A stretch of 64,000 nt of DNA from Xiphias gladius (taxonomy: Eukaryota; Chordata; Actinopteri; Istiophoriformes; Xiphiidae). This document shows, piece by piece, positions 9,224 to 55,972 of the stretch (position 1 is the stretch's first letter; each line of letters begins with the position of its first letter). The notes under the pieces are model-generated. The model was not told where the DNA came from. It was given only the letters and a program-made list of their open reading frames with translations, and did no database searches. Where the stretch lies: the NCBI RefSeq assembly GCF_016859285.1, contig NC_053420.1, forward strand, positions 9,248,001-9,312,000, read 5' to 3'. The position numbers and the translations under genes are program-made.

Positions 9224-11962
9224 TAAAAAGTATTGATAGAAGAGCATCACTAATGATCCAAAAGACTTTTCGAAACAAAAACAAAAAAAAGGAAATTTAT
9301 GACAAAACAACCATGAACCAGGCTACATTAAGCATGAACTGCTAGCATGTAAAAACACATTTTGTTAGCAGACCAGTGTTAGCACGGTAGCATGTGTAGC
9401 AGCACTCCTTTCTGCTGCCGAAAACTTTCCACCACTGAGTTAAAGTCTGTGTAGATGCAATGAGTTTGACTTGAAATAAATCCTCGACAGCCAGTAACTA
9501 AACTTCAGAGGTTTATAATGAAAACATGAAAAGTTACAAGACCTTTTTCATCAGGACTCGCCTCCATCCACAAAAACATTTGCTCCCTTACGCTAATTAA
9601 CGCCGACTGAGAGTGACTGGCCATGCCAGCATTAATAGAAGTAAGGATGCATCTTCAACATTTTAAGCACTAAAAGAATCAACATGAGCAAAAATAACTC
9701 TTCACTTACCAAAGACGCACAAATTTCAAAATGTTATACTGTTTACTGATCCAACTCATCCAATTAAATTTAAGACTTTTTAAGGCCTTTTTAATACCAC
9801 AGAGAAAATACAGTTCAGTACCTTTTTCATGGTCATACCAGTCAAAGAATGGCAGAAAACCACTAGGGACAAGAAGGCATGCAATTCATTGTTAAGTACA
9901 TTAATTTATTGACATTTATATCACTTTTTTCAGTACTTCCAAGGTGAATATAATAATAATTCCTAGTAATAAAACTGATCAGTTAATGTGACCGGGACCC
10001 AGATGTGGCAGAAAACTGGTGGATGGATTAACTACTTACAAAATCATTATTAAATGATTATCAAAGTCATTTTAAGATTTAAACTCCGCACAAAAAAGGA
10101 CTGAAACTCCTCCTGCATCCGCTGTCGCACTCGCAGTTTATAGCTGTAACATGTAACATTTGGTTTGGTGAGAAGATAAGAGACAATGCTCCAAAAGTTC
10201 CCCATGAAGGCTCAAGCGGCAATGTGCCAAATCTAATAAAGGGGAAACCGAGAACACACCATCGCTCACAAGCCTCTCTGGTATCTCTTCCTTGTTAATA
10301 AAATCCTCCTAGCTAGATAATGGGGGGTTATATTATGGCTACTCAATAACACATGGTGCATGACTTGCCCTTATTGACCCATAGAGAGAAAAGAAAAAGG
10401 TTGGAGGTGAGGCAATTGAAATACACAATGATATGTACAACGTACAGTCTGTCACTGCTGTATTGTAAGCACACTCCCAAACAGACGTCCCAGTGGAGAG
10501 AGGGGGGGGACGTCCTCCGACACTGGCGCTGTAGTGTCCTCAAAAATTCAAAAAACCTAGAGGCGGAGGCATGCAGATGTTTAGGTGAACGCACTTGCAC
10601 GTATGCCTCTCACAGAGACGCGTGACATTAAGTATAATTGTAGCTAATGGAAATGTGTGTCACACTGGGAGAGCTGCATAAGAGTACTGCTTATTTTGAG
10701 TATGTTTGCGTCATACTATGGACATCTTTCAAGTTTTGACAATTATGTAAATGTTAAGACGCAGTTTGTTGTATCAAACAACTGGAGGAACATGCTTTGG
10801 CATAACACTGTGTTTTTTGCCAGCTGCCTTTATGTACAGTATGCTGCATACTGTAAATTCCAAAGACAACTGTGTGTTTAAAACCGCTGAGAAGAAGCAG
10901 TTGTTTCTCGTCATTTTTACAGCTGACAGTAGATTGCGTGATCTTTGAAGTGCTTCCCATTGCACCGATAGCCGTGTTAAGGGGTCAGTGTGTTTCTGGA
11001 GCACAGACAACAGTAGTTTACAACTTTGCACGGATGGATCCAGTATGGGAAGAGTTGAGAATGTTAATATAATTCCTTCTCGCATGCCCCCGGCAGTACA
11101 CAGTGCTCAGAGAACTGTGTCCCCCATCTGACACCTGCACAGAGGGTCTTTACAATAACGAAAGTACACCATGAGAGGGAGAGATTACCCCTGGAAAATT
11201 AGAATAACACTAGAGAAAGTTAAATCGCTGTGTGTTGGCAAAACCATTGTTTTATTTGACTAAGCGTGAACTTAAGCCTACTTTTGTGCACTTTCTATCA
11301 TTAAGCGGAATGCCATTTAAAACTATTCAGTGTAAAAGTTGCATTGAAAAACACGGCAAAGGAAAAGTACTACATTTGAACCACTGAAGTGTCTAGAAAG
11401 AAGCGATGTGGAGGGTTAGATGAGAATCCCTGAGCCACTCAGAGCGAAAATAAAGGCGAAGCAGCCAGAACCTTGTGTGAACTGTAACACAAGCAGCGCT
11501 GAGCCTCGTGAGAGCTTGACACACATCTGAAATGGAGGACAAAGTATCCAGGAAATAGTGCTGCATTTACAGCTTCCATTTCCTAGTCTCTGGGTGTCTG
11601 TGATATAGACCAGCCTCCCCGGAGTGATCCAGACGACCGTGAATCCCTAACAGACGAACAGATGCCGTAACAACTGAGCTGGCACGAGCTGGCATTAGCC
11701 TGAGAGCAGAGAGTGAAAGTCCTGAGAGTGGTCACTGCCCTGAGTCCCCGACAGAGAGAGAGGGTGGCGGGGGAGAGTGCAAAGAGCCAGCACTCCCCCT
11801 AACAGACTTGTCCCCTCCGTTTTTCTGAAACATGCAGTGCTCTTTTGAAACGGTGCCAGTGGAGGCTGGCCCAAGCCCTTGCAGCCGAAACTTTTACAAG
11901 CTCAGTGTTTGCGAGCAGGAAGAGAAGGACACAAAGTGAGATTTGTAAAGGAAGCTCGCAGC

Positions 11963-12007: not shown

Positions 12008-13292
12008 CAACCCGCCTGAGATGTCAGCCCAATTATTCATGTTTGATTTCATTGTTCAGTCAAACTCCAAATTCTTCAAGAATATGCACAACATGTTTTA
12101 GAAAGAAGACTGGATGAGGAGAGAAGCGACTTAAAGTATATGTAAGGACATAATTGCTTAAAAAAATGAAGAGTCAGTGACGTCACACAGGAAGCTGTCT
12201 TGGATATTGCCTGAGGAAAGATACTGATGAGTGTCCATGGCACTCGGTGGTGTGGAGATACTTACGTTGTGCCCTTTTCAGGACTTGTACATTGGATTAT
12301 TTCAGTGATTTTCATTTCCTGGTGATGATTCACACAAAACACTATCTTTGGATCAGATAGTTCCTGGAGGCTGACTCCTCCCTCGCCCTTATTTTCACTT
12401 CAGATCTCAATGACACATTTTGTAACTTGAGTGACTGTATCGAGGTAAACATCTCAGACCGCTTGTTTGTTATATTGACAGCAAACACTGGTTGCCATTC
12501 ACTGCTACAGTCAAATTAAATCAGAACCCCGGTGGTTACCATTTTCTTCTATCTGCTGTGCAACAAATCTGAATAAAAACACAGGCAGGTGCAGAACAAC
12601 TAAAGACGTCCGGAATGACTACCGAAAATGGGAACTGTGAGGCATGTACTACCTGGGAATGATGCCAACTGCTGACAAAAGGCTTTACTGCACGGCTCTG
12701 AGAGAAGCCTTTAACTCATTTGCTCTGAAATGCCTCGGGAATTTCTGACACTGAATTGTTTAGCCAACTGTAGATAAATCTCTCAGACCTTTTGGCTTTG
12801 ATACAAGAAAGCATGTAAGTAACCACTTCTGATTCCTTCACTCGAGGTTATTTCTCTGTCTGCCTCTCTCTATTTCTGTCTTCCCTCCCAGCCTCTAATA
12901 CTACAGTCAATTGAGTGTCTATTTGATGGCACATATTCTACAGTTCATGTGACTGCTCCCCTTTATTCGGCGAGAATACTCTGTCAGCTCTGAGACTCTG
13001 TCTACTTTGATGCATATTCCGCATGGATTTTGAGTCTTCAGCAGGAGCGTGTAAGCAAAATTTTGTGACTTCATGATTTCTTTTCCTGTTTCCCTTTCTC
13101 CTTGCTGTCTCTCCTTCTTGGCAGCAGGGCAAAAGTGGGCAGGAAGAGAGGAGGGCATGGCCCAGAAACTGCTCTTGAGCCCCAGCCCCTGTTCGAGTGG
13201 GGTTGCTTGCTGGTATACTACTCAGCCTTTCCCTCGTCTTTCAGGCGAAAGAGAGGGATAAGTCTGCCTTTTTGTCTCCTTTCTAACCCGCC

Positions 13293-15470: not shown

Positions 15471-18080
15471 AAGTAAGTAAGCGCTGTCAGCACCAGCCTT
15501 AGCATACCAGCAATGGCGGAAAATGTTGTTAGTCCAGAATCTGCCATTAAATAACAGTCATCCCCATCAATTTAATAATTCACAGTTACATTGGGAGCAG
15601 TTTAGATATTATAATGCTGCATGTATCAAAACCACGCTGTGACAGACACAGTGCAACTATTGATCATAAACAACTAGAGCAGAGAACATATGCAGTCAAC
15701 TCGTAGCAGTAGCATTTTCAATAAACCTGGCTGTTGGCTTTAACGGTTTCTGTCTTACCATGTCCAATGATACAGGCAGTACCAAAAAATGTAAATCGGG
15801 AAATGAAAATCAGTTTAGTATTTTATTTTGTCAACCTGCGTAATGTAGAGAGTGCCCACCACCTTTGGTGTAGGGGTATTTTATGTTGGCCCATTGCCCT
15901 TCATGTTAAAGCACTTCTAATCAGTCACAAGCAGTGGCAAGCAGTCAAATAAACTGTATACTGGTTTGTGTTAAGAGGTCACAAACAAAAAATACTGGGA
16001 CCCACTGGTGTAGACTAGACAGCAGTTGCTAACATGAGAGACATTACGATATTTTCCTCAATTACAGATGGGTTTTTAATTTTTAGTATTTGTATTTTTT
16101 TTCTTAAACTCCTAATATTTAAGATTAGTGATAAGGTTGTATAAGTGATAAGATTTAAGACAAATGATTATCTGACACTCAAAATGGTTTTAGAGATGAA
16201 AAAAAAAGGCCAAAAGAAGAACAGAGAGTAAGCACCAAACAGGAAAACAGCAAAAACAAAGAAGGAAGGCTTACAACTGAAGAAATTACTCTGTGGGGCT
16301 CAGTGTGGTTTAATTCTAACTTCCCTGCATATAAGGTGTCTCCAAAAATTGAAAAATATAAAATTTAAATAAGAATTAACAAACGCCAACTTATTCAAAA
16401 GTTTAAACACACATCTTTCCATGGGGATAACAATGTGACAGCAAAAAAAATTCAACAGTCCTCTCTAGACTGAAGGTATGCTTATTGGCCTCACACATGA
16501 AACGTATATAACTTTCATGTACTCACTGTCAGTCAGTGTGAAAACATACAATACAGGCAGATTGGACAGAGGTTCTCTTCTGGATTCAATTTGCAAGTAC
16601 TTTTCGTAAGAAAATATAGAGGACAGCTCAGTTGTTTGATGCTTCACTGAAATTACAAATAATTGGAAAGATTATGTTCTTAATAAAGCCGTCAAAACCG
16701 TTACTGCCAGCGAAGATGTATGGCAGACTGAGCTGGCGTGGCGGACAAACGTAAACCCCTGCTGACCTGAGATGATTAAACAATATGCATCAGAGACGAG
16801 GAGATTCAACTGATACCTCCAACTCATACAAAACATAAACCACTTGTCCAACATATGGACAAAGTCTGCTTAGGGAACAATGGACCTTTCACTAGCTGTG
16901 TGAACACCTAACTCACATAGCCTGAACACTGCACTGAGCATCTGGTAGCAAGCTATGCCACCATACCTTATTGTGTAGTGTCATACCCCCTTTCTGACAT
17001 GGCATCCTTTCATTGCTTGGCTCCCAAATCTCTCCTCCCCCCTCAGTGGTGGGTTCTGCCATGCTGCATCCACGACATCACCCCCTTTTTGTCTCATTGA
17101 GATTCAGCTTGGCACACAGACAATGCCCATTTCTTGGCACCAAATATTGGAGAGAGCCGCATAAGAGAACCAACCTCAGTCTTTTCCCTCACAGTCGTCC
17201 CCCGAATTCCGCCGACCATCATGGACCAACGCCAACTTGTAATGGGAATTTTTTTTTGTGCCTTCGTCTGCTAAATTCTCAGTTTGTCGGCACCTGGGCA
17301 TATGAAATCACGGATATCTTTAATAATGTTTACCACTGTAAGATGAGGAGAGCTGCTCTTGGCATTTCTATCACACTGAATGTTCGATATGTTCCTTGGC
17401 ATGCTTACCGTACCGGTACCTGTTATGGATTCATAACAGTTTTCCTTCGTTATACTCTGCAACAGAGCAGCCATTTTCCTATCATCACCAGCTTGGGGAT
17501 ATATTGTGAAAGTCGAACCACTACTTCCGGGTGTAAAAAAAGAGAGAGAAAAAAAAGAACCATTTGCTTTAGCTCTTGGTTGCAAGCTTAACCACGCATC
17601 CATATGGAGTCTCAATGGAGGTGCTAATTAGTGCTTATCTTTAGCATAGCGTCTGTTAAAAAGGTTGATGCACAATCACTCACAGGATATTTGGAGACAA
17701 TCAAGGTAAGAATGAATAAAAAACATCAAAGCGTACCTGTTTGCATGCCTGACTGGCCTGTGGTTGAGAGATGTATTCAGCTACTGAATCACACTAGTAA
17801 CTCTAAAGTTGTAGTAGCAGTTTAGCTCATTTTTAAAACAGCTGAGGCAGTGGAACGGATGTTTGAATCAGATTGGCTGCTGATAATTTAATGAAAGAAT
17901 GTCAACACTTCATTTTAAGATGCGAATATTGTGAGAAAGAGAGATGCAAGTCAGATCATGTTAGATAATGCAATGTGGTGTTGTGTGCTGACTCAGTAGA
18001 CCAGAAATTAAAAGAGGACGTCCGTACTGTGGTGTAAGCTTTAAGTAGTCGTACTTTTAATCGTTACAGATGGATGAGCA

Positions 18081-19843: not shown

Positions 19844-19937
19844 GTCCTTAAGGCTGAGGTAGTAGATTGAATAGTTGTGGGGTTTGAGTCCTCCCTCTGA
19901 GATAACTATACAATCTACTGTCTTTCCTAAGGAGACA
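19844..19937 (+). ncRNA. let-7k-like microRNA precursor
   Basis: The 5' arm (mature 19855-19876) begins TGAGGTAGTAGATTGAATAG and ends TT, so the let-7 seed GAGGTAG is intact. The 3' arm (19906-19927) begins CTATACAATCTACTG and pairs with it, separated by a loop of about 29 nt. The stem extends outward through CCTTAAGG/CCTAAGG. The mature sequence differs from let-7f only by A for T in GATTGAATAG, and matches the variant I know as chicken let-7k. Let-7 microRNAs repress lin28, ras, hmga2 and similar mRNAs and promote differentiation. It sits 346 bp upstream of a second let-7 in the same orientation, so both probably come from one primary transcript. Confidence 0.93.
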
Positions 19938-20195
19938 GGTTGATCTACTGTGATGCCAATAGCCTGTGCGCACGTAAGAAGCTCCATGGATAAAGGAACT
20001 CATGGACTGAGTAAAGTAAATTTAAGAGATAACCCATCCCTCACCTCTGGGTAAGAAATTGCAGATACGACAAAGGCTTTATATATTTACCAGATGCAAT
20101 GGGGGAACTGATCTCTTCTAATAACATGTTCTGAAGTTAGTACATATTGAGCGAAGTCTTGTTTTTAAGGATGCTGTGCTTGAAGTTGAGCCTAG

Positions 20196-20280
20196 CAAGG
20201 TGAGGTAGTAGGTTGTATAGTTTGTGGGATGGAGTAAATCCTACTCAGATGATAACTATACAGTCTATTACCTTCCTTGA
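20196..20280 (+). ncRNA. let-7a/let-7j microRNA precursor
   Basis: The 5' arm (mature 20201-20222) begins TGAGGTAGTAGGTTGTATAG and ends TT, which is the canonical let-7a sequence and the same as chicken let-7j. The 3' arm (20256-20277) begins CTATACAGTCTATTACCTTC. The stem closes with CAAGG/CCTTG and the loop is about 33 nt. It is the second member of the cluster with the let-7k-like hairpin. Mature let-7a copies are identical across loci, so the locus name cannot be fixed from the mature sequence alone. Confidence 0.96.
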
Positions 20281-23669: not shown

Positions 23670-24909
23670 TCAACCAGAGTTGGCCACACTGCTAATGTTA
23701 CTGCTGATATTGTTGTCTGTCGTCTGGCTTGACTGAGATCCTTGATTTTCCTCTCCACATGCAATATACTGTCTCCAGATCTTCAGGTATGCAGTCCTGA
23801 TCTTTTGTATTTTGAACGCATAAACAACTGGGTTTACAGCTGAGTTAGCATGAGAAAGCAGGATGCCCACATGGAGAGCTATTTTTGGTACATTATTCAG
23901 GCCACTAAAGTAAGTAATGCAGTTCATTATATGGAGGGGGAGCCAGGACAGGGCAAACAGGGCCAATACCAGGGACAGAGATCCTGCCAGTTCTTTCTCT
24001 TTCCTCAGGTAGTTCTGAGATTGTTTCTGGGCACCGTTGCCTGGTTTATTTCTAAGGTTTCTTCGAATGGTACAGAATACAAAGCCATACAATACAGTCA
24101 TAATCAACAGAGGTGTCAAAGTGCAGAGAAAAAAGTTGAAGTAAACCAGGTATGACTTGGGGATCACGGTTACAAAATGGCAGACATTGGTAGAGTTGAC
24201 TGAATTAGACCGGTTTCTGGGGTCGTACCATCCAAGCATCGGAGCAAAGCTTAGTGGTATTGCAACAAACCAACATGCTGCTACCACAAACCATGAATGT
24301 CTCCGTGTTACAGTCCTTTTGTACCTAAAAAGAAAAACACTAATTACTAACACAATAAATTGTGTTTTCAAAAAATGAATAGTACAATTAGAAATTATAT
24401 AAGTCATTGTAGCAGTGTACAGTGAATCAACGCCTTTTTGTAATGCAAGCCATGCAAAAGAGTCAGAGTTGAGGTTTAGACAAAGATAGATAAAAATGTA
24501 AAGCTAATGATTCAAAGCCATTCACAACAGCACTGTTTTATTTTTCTCAGCACAATAAAACATGTAGAAAAAAATCCTACCTGAGAGGGATATACACCCG
24601 GAGGTAACGGTCCAAAGCAATAGCTGCAAGACACATAACTGAGACCAAGGTCAACAGGATGACCAAACAGCTGAAGAAGAGACAACAGTGAAATGAAGTC
24701 TTCACTCGTCCGTCCACCACCACAGCCAACGGTATGGCTATACAGCCAACCAGAAAGTCAGCGACAGCCAGAGAGACGATAAGGCAGAAGGTGGGCAGTT
24801 GAATGCTTTTATTGGTCCACAGAGCCAAAATAACCAACATATTGCCCAAACAGCAGCTAACAGCAATGATCACCTCCAACAAAGTGTAGATCACTTCACC
24901 CACGCTCAT
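23670..24909 (-). CDS. Adenosine receptor, A3-type (class A GPCR)
   Basis: Two exons, 24909-24581 and 24324-23670, join in frame (CTCAG|GTAGGA donor, TTTTAG acceptor) to give 327 residues, a normal adenosine receptor length. The start codon at 24909 sits directly before TM1. TM1 has [12 protein letters not shown]2 [12 protein letters not shown]3 ends in DRYLRV, TM6 is [13 protein letters not shown], and TM7 is [14 protein letters not shown], i.e. the NPxxY motif. Extracellular loop 2 carries the CHF ligand-contact motif and NRS/NST glycosylation sites. Ser-His at the start of TM7 is typical of A3, where A1 and A2A have Thr-His. The intron after [11 protein letters not shown] is at the position shared by adenosine receptors. 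The protein should sit in the plasma membrane, bind adenosine and couple to Gi. A minus-strand AATAAA lies at 23563-23558. An A1-like assignment is possible but less likely. Confidence 0.93.
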
Positions 24910-26396
24910 CGTGCTTCCAATCTGGCTAATGTTTGAGGGTTACTGGTGTTACGTTTCTGCATGCGAGTCTGAGTCCGTTCCAGTTATCATTCATCTCAAT
25001 CGGCGAGGCGTCTGAGGAAGTACTTGCCCACTCTGCTTCTTTTTTATTTCAAGTTGTGATGACACCAGATGAAACTTCCTGCAAGCCTTGCACGTGAATT
25101 TTCTGCAGGCTTGTATTTTTTAAATTTGTTTACATGGTTAGGCGGCGTTTAACTTTTAATACTGTACCAGGTCAGACTGTAGGCCGCTGCAGTAGATTAC
25201 ATGGGTGTCAAGAAAACAGACCAAAAAAACTAATAAGAGCCCTCATCTTAATTCTGTCTGTCGGGAGGAAACGAGACACTTTTTTTTTTTTTTTATCAAA
25301 TGGGACTGATTTACAGATGAATACTTGCCAATACTTGCGAAGAGTTACATGCAAGTTTTAAGTTTTGTGATTACCGACAGACATTTCTCTCCATCTTAGG
25401 TGCTCCCTCCTTTGAAACTACCACCCTGAGGCCTGACAGTGTCGGTTTACAACAACCACATTCACACTGCTAACATCATAAAGCCCTGATTTTTCTACAA
25501 GCTGTTCAAGAGTGAGCTGAAAGCAGCACGTTACAGTCATTTTCACTATGGACGGCATTTTTTGTTGAATTGTGTGGCTCATGTCACTGCCGTAACATTA
25601 GTGTCTGTGTTGGGCTTAAAACAGAGTATGGGCATGAAAAGTTGTAATAAAGGGAATGTTGCAGGGAATTAGCGTGTTCCAGAGACATAGTTTGTTTTTC
25701 TCATACACAGTGAAAACTGTTTCCTAGGAAACATCCAACATTTCTCTCAATCTTGATCTTAATCTAAAAACTGATAAATTTTTTTTTTTCTCACTCATTT
25801 GGTTTCATTTCTTCATGCTGGTGGTTGTAGTGGTTGTGGTCGTGGTATATGCTCTAACTCAGCTAGTTGTTGGATTTTTCTGTTACTTCACTTCAAAAGA
25901 GAACCGTTGTTTAAGTTTGTTTACATGTGAAGAAAATCTTCAACAAAACTATTAAGAATGTACAATGGAATTAAAGAGCCACCACTGTTACCACTGTACA
26001 GCCTTTAGCGACTTTTTCTCTCATGCATCTCATTCAATTGACTGCACGGCAGCTGACACAGGCGTGAATGAGCTTCTAACTTTCTCTCAGTGATCATTTT
26101 ACAAGTAACTATAGCCAAAATCACAGCACAGACGTTGTCTTTAACTTATGTCCATGGGGATTTTGTCGGACGACGTCGCAGTTATAAAATCAGCATTTTA
26201 GCAGTGCAGAGCACCAGCTTGGAAATGGCTTGGAAGTGACTGCTGGTTAACGTGTAGTCTTAATGGGCCATGTTTAAGTCACTATTTCACACTTGCTCCG
26301 TTGTCTGACTACAGAAACAGAAAAACATGTAAGTCAGAACAGCTATATTGGGAATTCGCGCAAATCTCTTAATTCATTCTGCTTGTTATCGCTTTT

Positions 26397-29688: not shown

Positions 29689-31802
29689 GCAATCAATAAT
29701 GGATGTGCACAAAATAATTTTGCACGATTAATATCTCACGTCATGTTACATTAATTGTTACTATATAACCACACTATCACAAAGGAGATTTTTTACATCA
29801 CTGGGTCGATCCAAGAGGAAAGAAATAGAAATGAGCAAACTGCAACAAAGAAATGGGTGAACAATATACGTGCACTAAATACAGTATAATAGGTGTTCTC
29901 GAGTGCCGAATCAATACATTCGATACATACTGCAGTGTTGTATTTTTTTTTGCCAGTTTTGACATTTACAGTCACTGGGTCACCAGATGTGATAATTCAT
30001 TTATTCTCCTACTTGACCTAATGAAGGCATGTGGGATGACAGAAGCCTAATAAAACTGATTCAGCGTCTGCTCCTGAACACTCTAATGCATACACCAGAG
30101 CCTGAGATCACAGGCAGTGTCCCAAAACAACATCCTGAGTCATCGCTTTCTTTAAAAAAAAATAAATAAAATAAAAATGTTGAGTGATCAGACTGAATAT
30201 ATTTAAAGGCAGATATTGAATATGCTCCCTTAAGCAACTGAAGACCATCTCAGTGATTGCCTGCTCAGTGATACCTGCTGCCAGCCAAGTCTTTTCATCC
30301 TCAGATGGACAATTAAATTAAGTATTGTGTAAGTAATTGAACTTTTGGATCTAATTCTCCGAGATACAGAAAGGTTGGATTTAGATTGTGTGGAGAACAA
30401 CATAAAGAATAAGAGATATAATGGGGAAAATGTGCCTTTGAAATTGAATGCAAGCCCGTGAGAGAGACACTAAAACATTTATTAATTATTTTTAAGAAAC
30501 AGCACTTAAATGTGTACATTATAACATCACAGCTGCTCAAAAATTACATAATAATAAAAAAAAGTTTTTGGACCAGATGGACAGAATTTTAATTAAAAGC
30601 TCGGAGTTAAAATGCTGTACTATGCTTTTACTGATGAGGATAAGTGATGAAATAGACCAAAGCTGCCATATGTCTGTCATTACATAATTCCAATTAGCCC
30701 TATATCTTTCAGGTATTGTTGTTGCATTATTAAAGGAGAACATGAGTATGCGTAATTTAGTTGATCCATAAGAAGGAAAGACCCTTCAGTCATACTACGA
30801 TGATGATCCTAACAATAATAAAACTCACAGATTAACAGTCATTTCTCATTTGTTTAATCTGTACAAAAACCAAGGCTTAAAAATGACCAGTTGTGGTTTT
30901 TACGACAGGTGATTGAGCGTACTATTTCTTGGCTAAGAGCAGTGACTTCTGGAAGTCTTGTCATCACTGGTCATGACTGGATGTTTGAAAGTCCAAAAAT
31001 TCAGAAAATAAAGTATGGGCTGCTATTCATTTTCTAAGATAGCTATGAGTTACAATCAAACATTTCTGAGTTTGGATAAGTCTGGTTATTTAAAGAATTG
31101 TTACTAAGATATGTAATGAGCAGGAGATTTTATGGTTGATAATTAAACTTGTCAGTGCTATCTATGGGACAAGTTTAATAATAATCTAATGGAGTTATAA
31201 TTATGTAATACTGACACTATTTCTCAAACATAACTTTGGAGTTGCATCACCTACTCACTTACATACTGATACTGACATATTTGTAATAAGATGCGCACAT
31301 CCATCTTCAGTTGAGCCTTTCTTATCTTTAACACCCTATTCAAACTGCATCATGCTTTTTGTAACATAAATACTACAGTTCCACCCAAAAACCACACACG
31401 GAGACACACACAAACGCACTTAATGTGAGCAAAACTATTGCTGCAGCGTGCTGCAGAAAGCAAAGTCCCTCCCCTCAATTTTATGACTCCTTTTAACAGA
31501 CTAGTGAGAGAGTGAAAGAGAGAGAGAGAGTAAGGATGTAGAAGAGCGATGATGCACCGGTACCCAGTCTTGTGCAGAGCTTGAACAACATACAGAGGAA
31601 TAATCATTCACCTCCCATGAGCACAAGTACCACTTACTGTGTAAATGTGGCAAAAAAAGTACACTTCTTACAGCTAGAAACTACACATAATGGAGGATGT
31701 TTCTATACTAAGGCAAAACCCAAAGTGGAGACAAGTTTCAACAGCCAATTTAAAATTTTTAACAATCTGAGCAAAGGTAAGCGAGATCTGCGAATAGTAA
31801 AA

Positions 31803-33748
31803 ATGTCTCCTGGCATCAAGTCTCGGGAGCATGTGGACATGGTGTACATCTCCATTGAGACAGCTATTGCCCTGGCCTCTGTGCTGGGGAATGTGCTGGT
31901 GGTGATGGTGGTGTGTGTGAACCGGGCTCTCCGCAACACCACCTTCTGCTTCATCGTGTCTCTGGCTGTGGCTGACATCGCTGTGGGAGTATTGGTCATT
32001 CCTCTGGCTATTATCATCAGTCTGGAATTTAACACTCAGTTCTACACCTGCCTCTTCCTCTCCTGCCTGCTGCTCATCATCACCCAGAGCTCCATCCTTT
32101 CCCTGCTGGCTATCGCCATTGACCGATATCTGCGAGTCAAGATTCCCACCAGGTGAGGAACTGTTCTAAAACAACTTAGTTACACTTTGAATGATATAAT
32201 TAGGTTAACACATGACTTTGAAATAAAATGAGGGAAAGAGAGGAAAGGTTTGTTTGGTAAGATTGTAATGGTTGATGAATGTTGTAATGACATTAAGGTA
32301 TCAATGTGGTAATTGACTGTCTGTATACAGTAAGAAGAATAAAATATTCATAACCGAGAGCAACAAAAAGTAGTCGTCAACATAATCTCTACTGGTTATG
32401 ATTGCTTATTCCAAGCCATCATAAGATTTCTTGATATGATTGAAACTCTTCCCACTAGGATTTGTGTTATTGACAAAAGTGCTCTGCCTTCATTAGCTAG
32501 ATTTCACTAGAATTCAATTGATACCACATTACACCATATGTCAAATCAAGTCAAATCAACACAAATAACTTATATATATTACGCAAAATTAGAAAATTGT
32601 CTTAGATTTCCCTCAGTATCAACATGTTCATAATAAGTCACTTAATTGAACGCAAAAAAATGAAGTTACTTTCTAAAGTTGCCCCAAAAATATTCTAGAA
32701 GAACAAATAATTATAGCAGTAGTAGCACCAACAGCCTCTGACCTTTTTTTATATTGGTCTTAGCATCAGAGAAGCTAAACATGTGCTTTTATTCTCCAGA
32801 CTGTCAATCAAGAGTTGGTAGTTCTCAGTGCTGATGCAAATCAATGCGCGGCACATCTAAAGCTTTTAAGCAAATTAAAATGGCCCTATCTGCCTAAATA
32901 ACTGACATAGGCACAGTACATTACGGGATTTGGCAGCCGCCTACACTAATTTTTTTGTTTGAAATCCTGATGTCAAAAGTTGGCAATGCTTCTGAACAGT
33001 AACCTATGGACTAGGATTTGTTCAATGAAATACTATTACAATATTATGCATGTGTGTATCTGGTTGATGGAAAGATCTGTCTTCATTTCATGTCCAACAT
33101 CCCTGTTCCAGGTACAGCATCATAGTGACCCAGGGGAGGGCATATGTGGCAGTTTGTCTGTGTTGGATCCTCTCCTTCCTCACTGGATTGGTTCCAATGA
33201 TTGGCTGGAATAACCGTGATGCCCGAGGAAATCTCAGCACTTCCAGCGAGATTGTCTGCGAATTTACCACTGTCATGAGGATGGACTACATGGTATACTT
33301 CAATTTCTTTGGCTGGGTGGTGGTTCCGCTGACCATAATGATTGCTCTGTATGCAGAGATCTTTAGGGTGATCCGGCGGCAGCTTAACCGACGTGCTGAG
33401 GCCACTTCTGACGGAGAAAGGTACTATCGGAAGGAGCTGAAGCTGGCCAAATCACTGGCCTTGGTGGTCTTCCTCTTTGCTGTGTGTTGGCTGCCGATAC
33501 ACATTATGAACTGCATTGACTTCTTCTGCCCAAAGTGTTATATACCCAAGTTTGCCACATATGTAGGAATTTTCATGTCCCACGTAAACTCAGCCCTCAA
33601 CCCAATGGTTTATGCATTCAGGATAAAGCGGTTCCATGTCACGCTGGTCCAGATCACTCGCCGTTGCATGTTATGTAAACGCACAGAGCCCACCCCATGC
33701 CCCACTAGCACACCAGCCCTTACGGAGAAAGTGGATGGAAACCTGTAA
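31803..33748 (+). CDS. Adenosine receptor, A3-type, second copy
   Basis: Exons 31803-32152 and 33112-33748 join in frame (ACCAG|GTGAGG donor; TTCCAG acceptor) for 328 residues. I chose the ATG at 31803 because [10 protein letters not shown] precedes TM1 at the usual distance; the frame is open back to 31572. Motifs seen are GNVLVVMVV (TM1), [10 protein letters not shown] (TM2), [13 protein letters not shown] (start of TM3, very like human A3), [12 protein letters not shown] in loop 2, NLST glycosylation site, [13 protein letters not shown] (TM5, A3-like), [13 protein letters not shown] (TM6) and [14 protein letters not shown] (TM7). The C-tail has a Cys pair (CMLC) suited to palmitoylation. 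The protein is expected to be a Gi-coupled receptor in the plasma membrane. Poly(A) signal AATAAA at 34043-34048. It is the divergent partner of the receptor at 23670-24909. Confidence 0.95.
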
Positions 33749-43133: not shown

Positions 43134-45514
43134 TCAGTCATCACTGTCGGACCATGGATGATCTGTACATGCCTGCAAACGAGAACAGGAGTTTTAAACC
43201 AAACCTCTCGATGTGCCTGTTTTTCTCCGCGACTGTTCAAATTGCTATGTACAGCTATACAAAGCAAAGAGCAGGGATAGTTCCAGAAAAAAAAATAAAA
43301 AAGAACATTGGGGAGAACTGAATTAGAACGCTTATACATGGGTTAAATAATATAAAAACACTAAAGCTGTGTGCTTCTAACGTTTAGTGTTCTCCTCTGC
43401 TTTATTTCCTTACGCCCGCATCTTACCTGTTGGTATTCAAATCGGTCCCGTAGATAACGGTTCCCCAGGCCTGTAATGTGACCTAAATTCTGCATGGAGA
43501 GCCCGGCTATCCTGGCTGTAAAGTCGAGCGTAAAGGCCAGCTTGACCAGCTCGGGTGCTGTCGGTGGGACGGTGGGACGACTTTGGCTCGGCGACGCCTC
43601 TTTTTCGAGATAGGCATCAGCCAGCTTCTGGAAGGAAGAGTACGTCATCCGCTGGAAGAAGCTGCTCAGGGTGGGGTTATCTCTCAGCTGGGGGAGGTAA
43701 GGAGAGGAAGGCCGTCAGTAACTACAGTACGCGTTGACCTCCTGGGGATGTAGTGCTCACAAACATTCGTGGTAAAAAGTAGAAAATCAATCGTAAAAAA
43801 AAGCTTAAACGCTTAAAAAGAACAGCTGTTGGTGAAATTAATTTTGCGATGGAAAAAGGCCAAAAGTAGATGATGTTTTTGAGGTCATTTCAGCCCAGGT
43901 GCAATGATTTACTGTTAAACGCTGATGCACAAACATTTATAGATGCCAATAACGTTTCTTGTTATCATTATTGATTATCTGCTGGGTGGCTTCCCACTTT
44001 AACGTGAAGTCGGATCGTGGAGTTTGTACTTTCTGTTATGCGACTTTATGGTACTTTTTATGGTTATGAACGTGCTTTTACCTCCTGCTGAAACTGCTGA
44101 GGCAGCTTCGACAAACACCCTTGCTAAAAAATACTCGCAGGATTGATCTGATTAATTCCTTAATAGTTAACCAAACGCACGATTTTATGAAAAGCTGGAC
44201 TATGTCAGAAGCAATTAAAGCACTTGTCCTGTAGTTTTATCAACTCAATTCTTTTACCTAAGACAGCAATGAATACCAACCTTGTCATCTATGGCGTCAC
44301 CCTGCTCCTTTGTCAAAGCAATGATCCTGTTGATTACTTCCTCTGGGACAAAAACAAGACCGTGAGGAAATAATAATCAATGTGCAGAACGACTCACGAT
44401 ACCAGAATCTGTTTTTGTAATGCACAGTTATAGGGATTAAATACGGAGTGGTTATGAAACTCATTTTTGAGGAGAATAATGTGTAAGATACAAAGATGCA
44501 CAACAAGGAGAAGACATGATGAAGTAATACATTCTGGAAATTCACAAAGTGAACAAAACTTTCACAAACTAAATTTAGCAGTAAAACACCGTTTTCTGCC
44601 ATTAACTGCTACTTTGCAGTGTTTAAAAGCTGCCATGCATTTGACATTTTTTCACACTTTAATTGTGGATCAATGAGCGTAAAGAGTAACTGGTTCCTAC
44701 CATCTGAGAGACGTTTAACTTCCTCGTTTTCTTTGACCTCGTGGACAATTTTTTCCATTTCCTCTGACACTTTCTCATAGTACGAGTATGTCGGTTCCAC
44801 CCTGATAACAGCTGCAAAGCAAAGGAAGCATTGAGAGTATTATTACAACAGTCACGTGACCCAGATTTATTTACCCAGTGAGGTTCAATCCCCAAATTTA
44901 CCTTCAATATCAGTGATGTCAGCAGGGATGAGATCTTTACCGGGTTTGTTTGGTTTTATCAGAGACAGCCGCCTTTTGGAGAATCTTCTTTTTAAGGACT
45001 TTCTTCTCATGGACTTCTTCTTTTGCGAAGTGACTGGAGTTGCGGGCAGGCAGGCGGTGGCAGCATCAGAGGCCACTTCTGCCGTGGAGTCCTTTGGCGT
45101 CTCTGAAGGACTGGCCTGCTCTTCATCTTTGTCCTCATTACTCTTGCGAGAGAAAAAGCTTAATATATCTTTCCAAAATGACTGTTTCTTGTTCTTCCTT
45201 GATTTTTTGGCCGGCTTCTCTGATTCCTCAGGACATGTTTCAGGCTGATTTGCGGGAGGTTCGAACGCAGAAAATACACCAGTTTCCCTGTCGTCCAATC
45301 CCTCGGCCAGGTGAAGGGAAGGGTCACTGGAATGTCGTCTCGGCTTTTTTGTCACCCACTTTTCTTTCCTCCCAGACCTCTCTTCCCCCAGAGCCCCATC
45401 GTTCAGGCTGAGGCTGCGCTTGACGTAAACCTCCAGCAGACGGATTGTATCCTTGTGAGGCACCGAAATCAACTGGCCGTTATTGGGCCTTTGTTTTTCC
45501 GTCTGCATTTCCAT
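43134..45514 (-). CDS. bcl2l14: Bcl-2-like protein 14 (Bcl-G) homologue
   Basis: Five coding exons on the minus strand: 45514-44902, 44811-44701, 44342-44281, 43687-43427 and 43172-43134. All have GT-AG borders and join in frame to 361 residues. The N-terminal 200 residues are polar and charged, with RRKSLKRRFSKRRLS, a likely phosphorylated basic stretch. The C-terminal Bcl-2-like part has RIIALTKEQGDAIDDKL (BH3 position), FFQRMTYSSFQKLAD, ELVKLAFTLDFTARIAGL and HITGLGNRYLRDRF (BH1-like). These align block by block with human BCL2L14 (GDQLERKL, FQDGLSYSVFK, ALVIDVTAKL, LGFGTKYLKENF). No C-terminal membrane anchor is present, as in human Bcl-G long form. The last exon adds only 12 residues, so the BH2 segment seen in human is missing or diverged. 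Bcl-G is linked to apoptosis and intestinal or immune homeostasis. Confidence 0.85.
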
Positions 45515-45674
45515 TCTGGGATGGATATGAGAAAAAGAAAACAACATCACACATACAACAGGTTATTAGATTCTTCTGCATTGAACCTCTGCCACTTTCA
45601 CCCAGAAATCACTTGTGCTTTACTTTACTTGCGCAAACAATGAGCTTCTTCAGGGACGCCTTTAGAGTTTAAAC

Positions 45675-54265: not shown

Positions 54266-55972
54266 TCAGTGCATGCCATTCTTCTCATTCTGCCAGGTGC
54301 CGTTACTTTTGTTTAGTGAAGGTGTGCTTTCATACTTGTTAGCTGCTGACATTTTCTGGGCAGCCTCTGCTGCTGCATCCATCATCTGTTTCTCCTCCTG
54401 CTCAGTCTCTCGGTGGTAAAAATAGTTAAAGTTGGAGACGATGACTGGGACAGGCAAGGCAATGGTCAGGACACCAGCAATGGCACAGAGAGTGCCGACC
54501 ATTTTGCCTCCCATGGTAATGGGGCACATGTCTCCGTATCCCACAGTGGTCATTGTCACCACAGCCCACCAGAAGCCATCAGGGATGCTGACAAACTGCG
54601 TCTGGGGCTCATCCACTTCTGCAAAGTAGATGGCACTTGAGAACAGGATGACCCCTATAAAAAGGAAGAAAATGAGCAGTCCCAGTTCCCTCATACTGGC
54701 TTTCAAGGTCTGACCCAAGATCTGAAGGCCTTTTGAGTGTCGGGAGAGCTTAAAAATTCTGAAAACTCTCACTAGTCGGATGATTCTTAGGATTGCCAGG
54801 GACATGTTCTGACTAGAGTTCACATCATCGTCAGGGGTTGTAGCCAGCTCTGTGCCCAGGGTTACAAAGTAGGGAATTATAGAGACTATGTCAATAATAT
54901 TCATGATGTTATTGAAGAAATCACTCTTGCTGGGGCACACCACAAAGCGGACACCGACTTCAAAGCAGAACCAAATGATGCAAATAGTCTCCACAATAAA
55001 AAAGGGGTCTGTGATGTAAGCCACGAGGTCTTTAGTGGCGGGATGAGGGGCAGAACTGTCTTGGGTGCCATTGATAATGTGAGTTAAACCTGGGATAAAG
55101 TCATTGTCCTCCCTGAACTCTGGCAGAGTCTCCAGGCAGAAGATGAAGATGGAAATGACGATGACAAACACAGAAACCAGGGCTACAGATCTGGCTGCAC
55201 TGGAGCTCTCTGGGTATTCAAACAAGAGCCAGAACTGCCGTTGCAGTTCGTTGGTGGGCAAAAGGACCTCTGGCTCCTTAATGAACCCTTCGTCTTCACG
55301 GAACTGCTCCATCGCTTCATGACCCAACTCGTAGAAAATGATTTCATTAGCAAAAACATCTAAGGGAACATTGGCTGGTCTGCGGATTCTCCCCCCGGAT
55401 TGGTAGTAATACAGAATCCCATCAAAGGACGGGCGGTTTCTGTCAAAAAAGTACTCGTTTCTCATTGGGTCGAAATAGCTTATCCGCTTCATGGGGTCAC
55501 CAAGCAGTGTCTCTGGAAACTTATTCAGGGTGCTGAGCTGGGTCTCGAACATCAGGCCTGAAATATTGATGACAACTTTCTCATCTTTTTCTTCCATGCA
55601 ATGTCTTTCAAACAAATCTTCATTCTCATAGCAATCCTTCGCCATTTTACTGAAGACGCTGTCAGCGGGAGACTCGCTGTTGATCAGGAGCTTCAGATTT
55701 GAGATCAGGCTTCCACTGCTGGAGTTCGCTTTTGTGGTCAGAGTCTGGGGGGAGGACGGTGACAACCCCTCTTGACCAGACTGATGCCGATGTCGTCCTT
55801 TGTGTGGCGACTGGGGAGGAGAAGTCAGGCGGTGGGTTAACAGATTCTGATCAGGGGCCTCTGAGGTGGGTGAAGTCGGGTATCCAGAATCACTCGGATC
55901 ACCCAGGTTGATCCCGACATCATCCATGTTCTCAAAATTAACAAGAGGCACCTCCATTGCCTGTCTTGTCAC
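54266..55972 (-). CDS. kcna10: Voltage-gated potassium channel, Kv1.8 (KCNA10)
   Basis: An intron-free coding sequence of 568 residues. Residues 1-130 are a polar N-terminus with [13 protein letters not shown], matching human KCNA10 'MEVALVNFDN', which fixes the identity and start. The T1 tetramerisation domain follows ([43 protein letters not shown]). Six membrane segments come next, with S4 [20 protein letters not shown] holding the gating arginines, and the selectivity filter [10 protein letters not shown]6 contains the PVPVIV hinge. Kv1.8 forms tetramers in the plasma membrane and carries delayed-rectifier K+ current; in mammals it is known in kidney and vestibular hair cells. Human KCNA10 is 511 residues; the extra length here is mostly N-terminal. 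The mRNA probably has an upstream non-coding exon ending at 57120. Confidence 0.96.

Follow-up and report, generated by a model that had tools for sequence, protein, structure and literature searches.

A let-7e/let-7a microRNA pair of the swordfish genome and its second copy

Described let-7e/let-7a pairs and the swordfish hairpins

Two-member clusters in which a let-7e gene lies beside a let-7a gene are already catalogued in fishes and, with a different nomenclature, in chicken. The table of a study on fish let-7 evolution gives dre-let-7e/let-7a-5 for zebrafish, ola-let-7e/let-7a-2 for medaka and fru-let-7e/let-7a-3 for fugu, one pair per species. The chicken let-7j-let-7k cluster is placed by its published coordinates on chr26 at 1442697-1442779 and 1442897-1442979, 200 bp from start to start, and is reported as expressed in lung and trachea. 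The mature sequence of the first gene is likewise well recorded. The complete 22-mer has been published as let-7e in sturgeon (18,018 reads), in zebra finch and in flounder (2 clones), the flounder table also crediting it to platypus, Tetraodon, fugu, zebrafish and chicken; it is given for silver carp under the name dre-let-7e, for common carp as let-7-x and for chicken (gga) as let-7k, and it is contained in the let-7e qPCR primers of two fish studies. The records from sturgeon, flounder, the two carps and zebra finch come from small RNA that had been sequenced or cloned. Gar is among the species added in MirGeneDB 2.1.

The window analysed here is the whole 64,000-nucleotide stretch C21:9248001-9312000 of the swordfish genome, and it contains a pair of this kind. 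Both hairpins are on the + strand, hairpin 1 at 19849-19930 and hairpin 2 at 20195-20280, and both exceed the gathering score of the Rfam let-7 family (RF00027; 53.5 bits), with 69.2 bits (E 2e-12) for the former and 73.4 bits (E 1.5e-13) for the latter. None of 200 dinucleotide shuffles folds as well as either sequence (z -4.65 over 90 nt and -7.56 over 94 nt). The predicted mature 5p sequences, read directly, are TGAGGTAGTAGATTGAATAGTT at 19855-19876 (+) and TGAGGTAGTAGGTTGTATAGTT at 20201-20222 (+). The first is an exact match to the published fish let-7e/chicken let-7k 22-mer, UGAGGUAGUAGAUUGAAUAGUU, and the second is the let-7a sequence, so that a let-7a gene lies on the same strand within a few hundred bp of the let-7e hairpin. 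We take chicken let-7j to carry the let-7a sequence as well, which would make hairpin 2 its counterpart. In both stable hairpins nucleotides 2-8 of the 5p arm form the seed GAGGTAG, and the seed 8-mer TGAGGTAG starts at 19855 and at 20201, a spacing of 346 bp. The 8-mer was rejected as evidence in its own right, being seen twice in the window vs 1.77 times expected by chance. As such, the let-7 call rests on the covariance model and the fold, by which these are two genuine let-7 microRNA genes, side by side and far above chance.

The original prediction of a two-member let-7 cluster, with a let-7k body in the first hairpin and a let-7a body in the second, is therefore borne out. It had also presented the GATTGAATAG body as uncommon and new to fish, which is not supported: this is the body of standard fish let-7e, and the pair is the one tabulated in zebrafish, medaka and fugu. 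The differing names used in fish and birds probably misled it. Its view that the let-7e/k sequence is ancient finds support in the published records from teleosts, sturgeon, zebra finch, chicken and platypus. Its suggestion that mammals may have lost the pair needs narrowing, because platypus (oan) is among the species to which the 22-mer is credited in a published table, and any loss thus looks therian rather than mammal-wide. Running against a therian loss is a 2009 pig cloning study in which the 22-mer is listed as ssc-let-7k with 6 reads, an entry that we largely discount, since the let-7e and let-7j sequences of that study, too, seem to be unusual variants.

The swordfish locus is thus a known, ordinary let-7 cluster, and the modest extra value of describing it lies in its double copy, the swapped slots of its members and the absence of a GRAG motif. 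The window pair is like the tabulated fish clusters in its dre-let-7e mature sequence and in the type of its partner, a likeness of mature names and sequence rather than of precursors or flanks, but the swordfish genome has two such pairs where the table has one per species. As in the chicken cluster, two let-7 genes lie close together, although the spacing differs (200 bp start to start in chicken, 346 in the window), the comparison being one of coordinates and of the mature 22-mer.

For the expression of the pair, we infer that a single + strand primary transcript would carry both hairpins, and that Drosha and Dicer would release from it two 5p guides which, having the seed GAGGTAG in common, would have overlapping targets. 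The hairpin 1 guide departs from let-7a at two positions, with A in place of G at nucleotide 12 and A in place of U at nucleotide 16. Nucleotide 16 (A) stands opposite an A in the 3p arm and is unpaired in the fold, a mismatch present in both copies of the pair in the genome. Since nucleotides 12 and 16 fall in the 3' pairing region, this guide would have its seed targets in common with let-7a and diverge from it at sites that need 3' pairing. In a let-7a binding study, pairing from nucleotide 11 onwards shapes the affinity of 3' sites, with nucleotides 11-14 mattering more than 13-16 (PMC8940178), which makes distinct 3'-assisted targets for the hairpin 1 guide plausible.

let-7 pairs and their slots across the genome

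A whole-genome Rfam let-7 search over 690.8 Mb returned at least 22 rows, 21 of them above the cut-off and one an antisense echo. Fourteen of the 21 hairpins form seven two-member pairs, these counts being lower bounds. One of the seven is a second let-7e/let-7a pair, located on C18 in the same order and on the same strand as in the window. Its hairpins are 90% (first) and 87% (second) identical to those of the window, and in a hairpin tree the two first hairpins pair with support of 100/98 and the two second ones with 91/95. Between C21 and C18 the mature 5p arms are identical and the 3p arms almost identical, the marker in the 3p arm of hairpin 2 reading TTACCTTCC in the window vs TTGCCTTCC on C18, while the spacer DNA aligns poorly and with many gaps.

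These comparisons bear on whether one or both window hairpins might have decayed and be unexpressed in swordfish. The C18 copy could make the window copy redundant, and no CNNC motif was found in the 30 bases checked downstream of window hairpin 2. However, the arms have been kept while the spacer diverged, which argues for selection on both copies, and we regard decay as very unlikely.

The pairs are of four kinds, namely a/f, a/b, a pair with a let-7h-type second member, and e/a. For the swordfish pairs we use the human cluster names let-7a-1/let-7f-1, let-7f-2/mir-98 and let-7a-3/let-7b on the assumption that they apply. To our knowledge, one of the four kinds is absent from humans, in whom we know of no let-7e/k-type (let-7e/let-7a) locus. 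Such a set of four is consistent with a single ancestral tandem that was duplicated twice, and the kinds would then descend from the two genome duplications early in vertebrate history.

Short markers in the 3p arm tell the two positions within a pair apart. All seven first-position hairpins and none of the seven second-position ones contain CTGTCTTTC, and [CT]T[GA]CCTTCC is found in none of the seven first members and all seven second members, although the 14 hairpins are not independent, several pairs being late duplicates. Judged on the swordfish's own pairs, the window pair is like the let-7a-1/f-1, f-2/mir-98 and a-3/b clusters in its two-slot layout and 3p markers, but the names are swapped relative to slot, with the let-7a sequence of the window in the second one. 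By these markers, the let-7e/k-like hairpin thus occupies the slot of let-7a-1/let-7a-3 and the let-7a-sequence hairpin that of let-7f/let-7b. We read slot identity from the markers because the hairpin tree is too weak to settle it and agrees with this reading only weakly: the seven first-slot hairpins form one side of a branch (support 65/11, 70% of bootstrap trees), the second-slot hairpins are not recovered together, though holding them together is not rejected (p 0.41), and the same goes for two rival groupings, all four let-7e/let-7a hairpins together (p 0.19) and hairpin 1 with let-7f (p 0.20), neither of which is rejected.

That the AU test does not reject the first of those groupings (p 0.188) would suit a rival reading, in which the pair arose by tandem duplication within one lineage, independently of chicken let-7j/k, and the let-7e/k body evolved twice. 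The clean division of CTGTCTTTC between first and second positions speaks against such an origin. So do the published records: the same 22-mer, two sites off let-7a, appears in zebra finch as well as in sturgeon, flounder and carps, and pairs of this kind are on record for three other fishes and for chicken. We consider a separate origin extremely improbable. We are confident instead that the pair is the canonical, catalogued vertebrate let-7 tandem known as let-7e/let-7a in fish and let-7k/let-7j in chicken, one of four kinds and present in duplicate. Chicken 'let-7k' and fish 'let-7e' are accordingly indicated to be one gene under two names, a gene that we take to differ from mammalian let-7e. 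Naming let-7 genes after their mature sequences obscures their lines of descent.

The pair with a let-7h-type second member occurs twice on one chromosome, at C18:14672602-14672983 and C18:26649007-26649636. It presumably resembles human let-7f-2/mir-98, and its second member mir-98, so that what is called let-7g/h in fish may correspond to let-7f-2/mir-98. The let-7h 22-mer, which is that of the second member in swordfish, is listed in a published table for dre, fru and tni.

The GRAG motif and LIN28

The GRAG motif, which is bound by the zinc fingers of LIN28, is described as conserved in all human let-7 except let-7a-3, which alone is reported to escape LIN28, and Lin28a is described as binding pre-let-7a-1 over ten times less well once GGAG is mutated (PMC5368188, PMC5311490). 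In swordfish, GRAG stands just before the 3' stem in 15 of the 21 hairpins. It is missing from six: all four hairpins of the let-7e/let-7a pairs, and the first hairpin of each a/b pair, one on C2 and one on C8. We take these last two to be of let-7a-3 type from their let-7b partner. The motif is thus missing in 4/4 hairpins of the let-7e/let-7a pairs vs 2/17 others, a contrast that is suggestive only, as the four may amount to just two independent losses. Its position reads TGAG and GATG in the window and TGAG and GGTG on C18, so that none of these four has the GRAG of a LIN28-regulated precursor there.

This pattern raises the possibility that the pair, besides being an ordinary let-7 cluster, is a LIN28-insensitive source of let-7 through loops lacking GRAG. 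We hold this to be rather unlikely. The restriction of the loss to these four hairpins and to two of let-7a-3 type fits it, as does the reported escape of human let-7a-3 from LIN28. Nevertheless, GGAG is present elsewhere in the loop of window hairpin 2, and both second hairpins, on C21 and C18, retain a GNGAY motif. In chicken DF-1 cells, moreover, let-7k-5p is reported among the 4 of 17 let-7 species that move opposite to Lin28B, as assayed by qRT-PCR among near-identical family members (PMC7823903). As reported, a Lin28B-responsive let-7k contradicts the prediction of LIN28 resistance, at least for chicken (PMC7823903). A broader version, in which let-7e/let-7a (k/j) would be a second LIN28-evading group beside let-7a-3 and its loss in therians would have removed a LIN28-tolerant let-7 source, strikes us as more doubtful still. 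If the LIN28 prediction were true, non-therian vertebrates would have some let-7 that the usual LIN28 switch does not control. One study of Lin28a and let-7 reportedly mentions let-7k (PMC7259951).

Flanking genes and upstream elements of the two copies

What is added here to the catalogued pair is a second copy in the same order, flanked by an adenosine-receptor-like gene and, further on, by a trio of Kv1 genes. These neighbours recur at both places in the swordfish genome. In the window, the adenosine-receptor-like gene lies at 23670-24939 on the - strand, convergent to the let-7 pair, with a Pfam 7tm_1 match over 23670-24407 and a predicted structure of at least two exons. Its translated matches lead to C18:16346728-16347927, beside the C18 let-7 pair and likewise convergent to it. 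That C18 gene matches at 40% identity, its alignment is interrupted by one TGA, and it may be decaying. The window has a further adenosine-receptor-like gene at 31572-33748 (+), about 6.6 kb from the one at 23670-24939 (-) and 43% identical to it over the matched part.

The second synteny anchor is a Kv1-type potassium channel gene at 54266-55972 (-), with Kv1.2 and Kv1.3 as its best PDB matches, which from its position would be of KCNA10 type. A trio of Kv1 genes lies on the minus strand downstream of each let-7 pair, at C21:9302269, 9324430 and 9340215 and at C18:16440649, 16464270 and 16479939. The first 150 kb of C18 compared gave no Kv1 match, and the whole-genome search placed the trio just beyond that stretch.

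Upstream of the hairpins, three elements on the + strand are collinear between the C21 and C18 copies, the best E being 1.7e-12. The element at 17079-17156 is 81% identical over 78 columns to C18:16342540-16342615, and a whole-genome search with it returned only the window and C18 places; it is possibly a promoter or an exon of the primary transcript. The others lie at 13098-13143 (83% over 48 columns; E 1.8e-6 in the controlled run) and at 11850-11901 (79% over 53 columns; E 3.5e-5 in the controlled run). Among 22 control comparisons (one reversed, 12 with other C18 stretches and 9 with other loci), one gave matches at E 1e-3 or better, namely two with a best E of 2.5e-4, vs three in the real comparison. 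The C21 and C18 pairs are probably ohnologues, the locus having doubled through the teleost duplication.

Two minor features of the window lie at a distance from the pair. At 44885-45550 (-) there is a 221-aa open frame that includes a lysine/arginine-rich stretch and has no Pfam match at E 0.001. Inside the Kv1 gene, 54431-54544 (-) matches the Rfam family K_chan_RES, the potassium channel RNA editing signal, with 114.5 bits. The potassium channel RNA editing site is known in KCNA1, and the match in this KCNA10-like gene may be just coding similarity.
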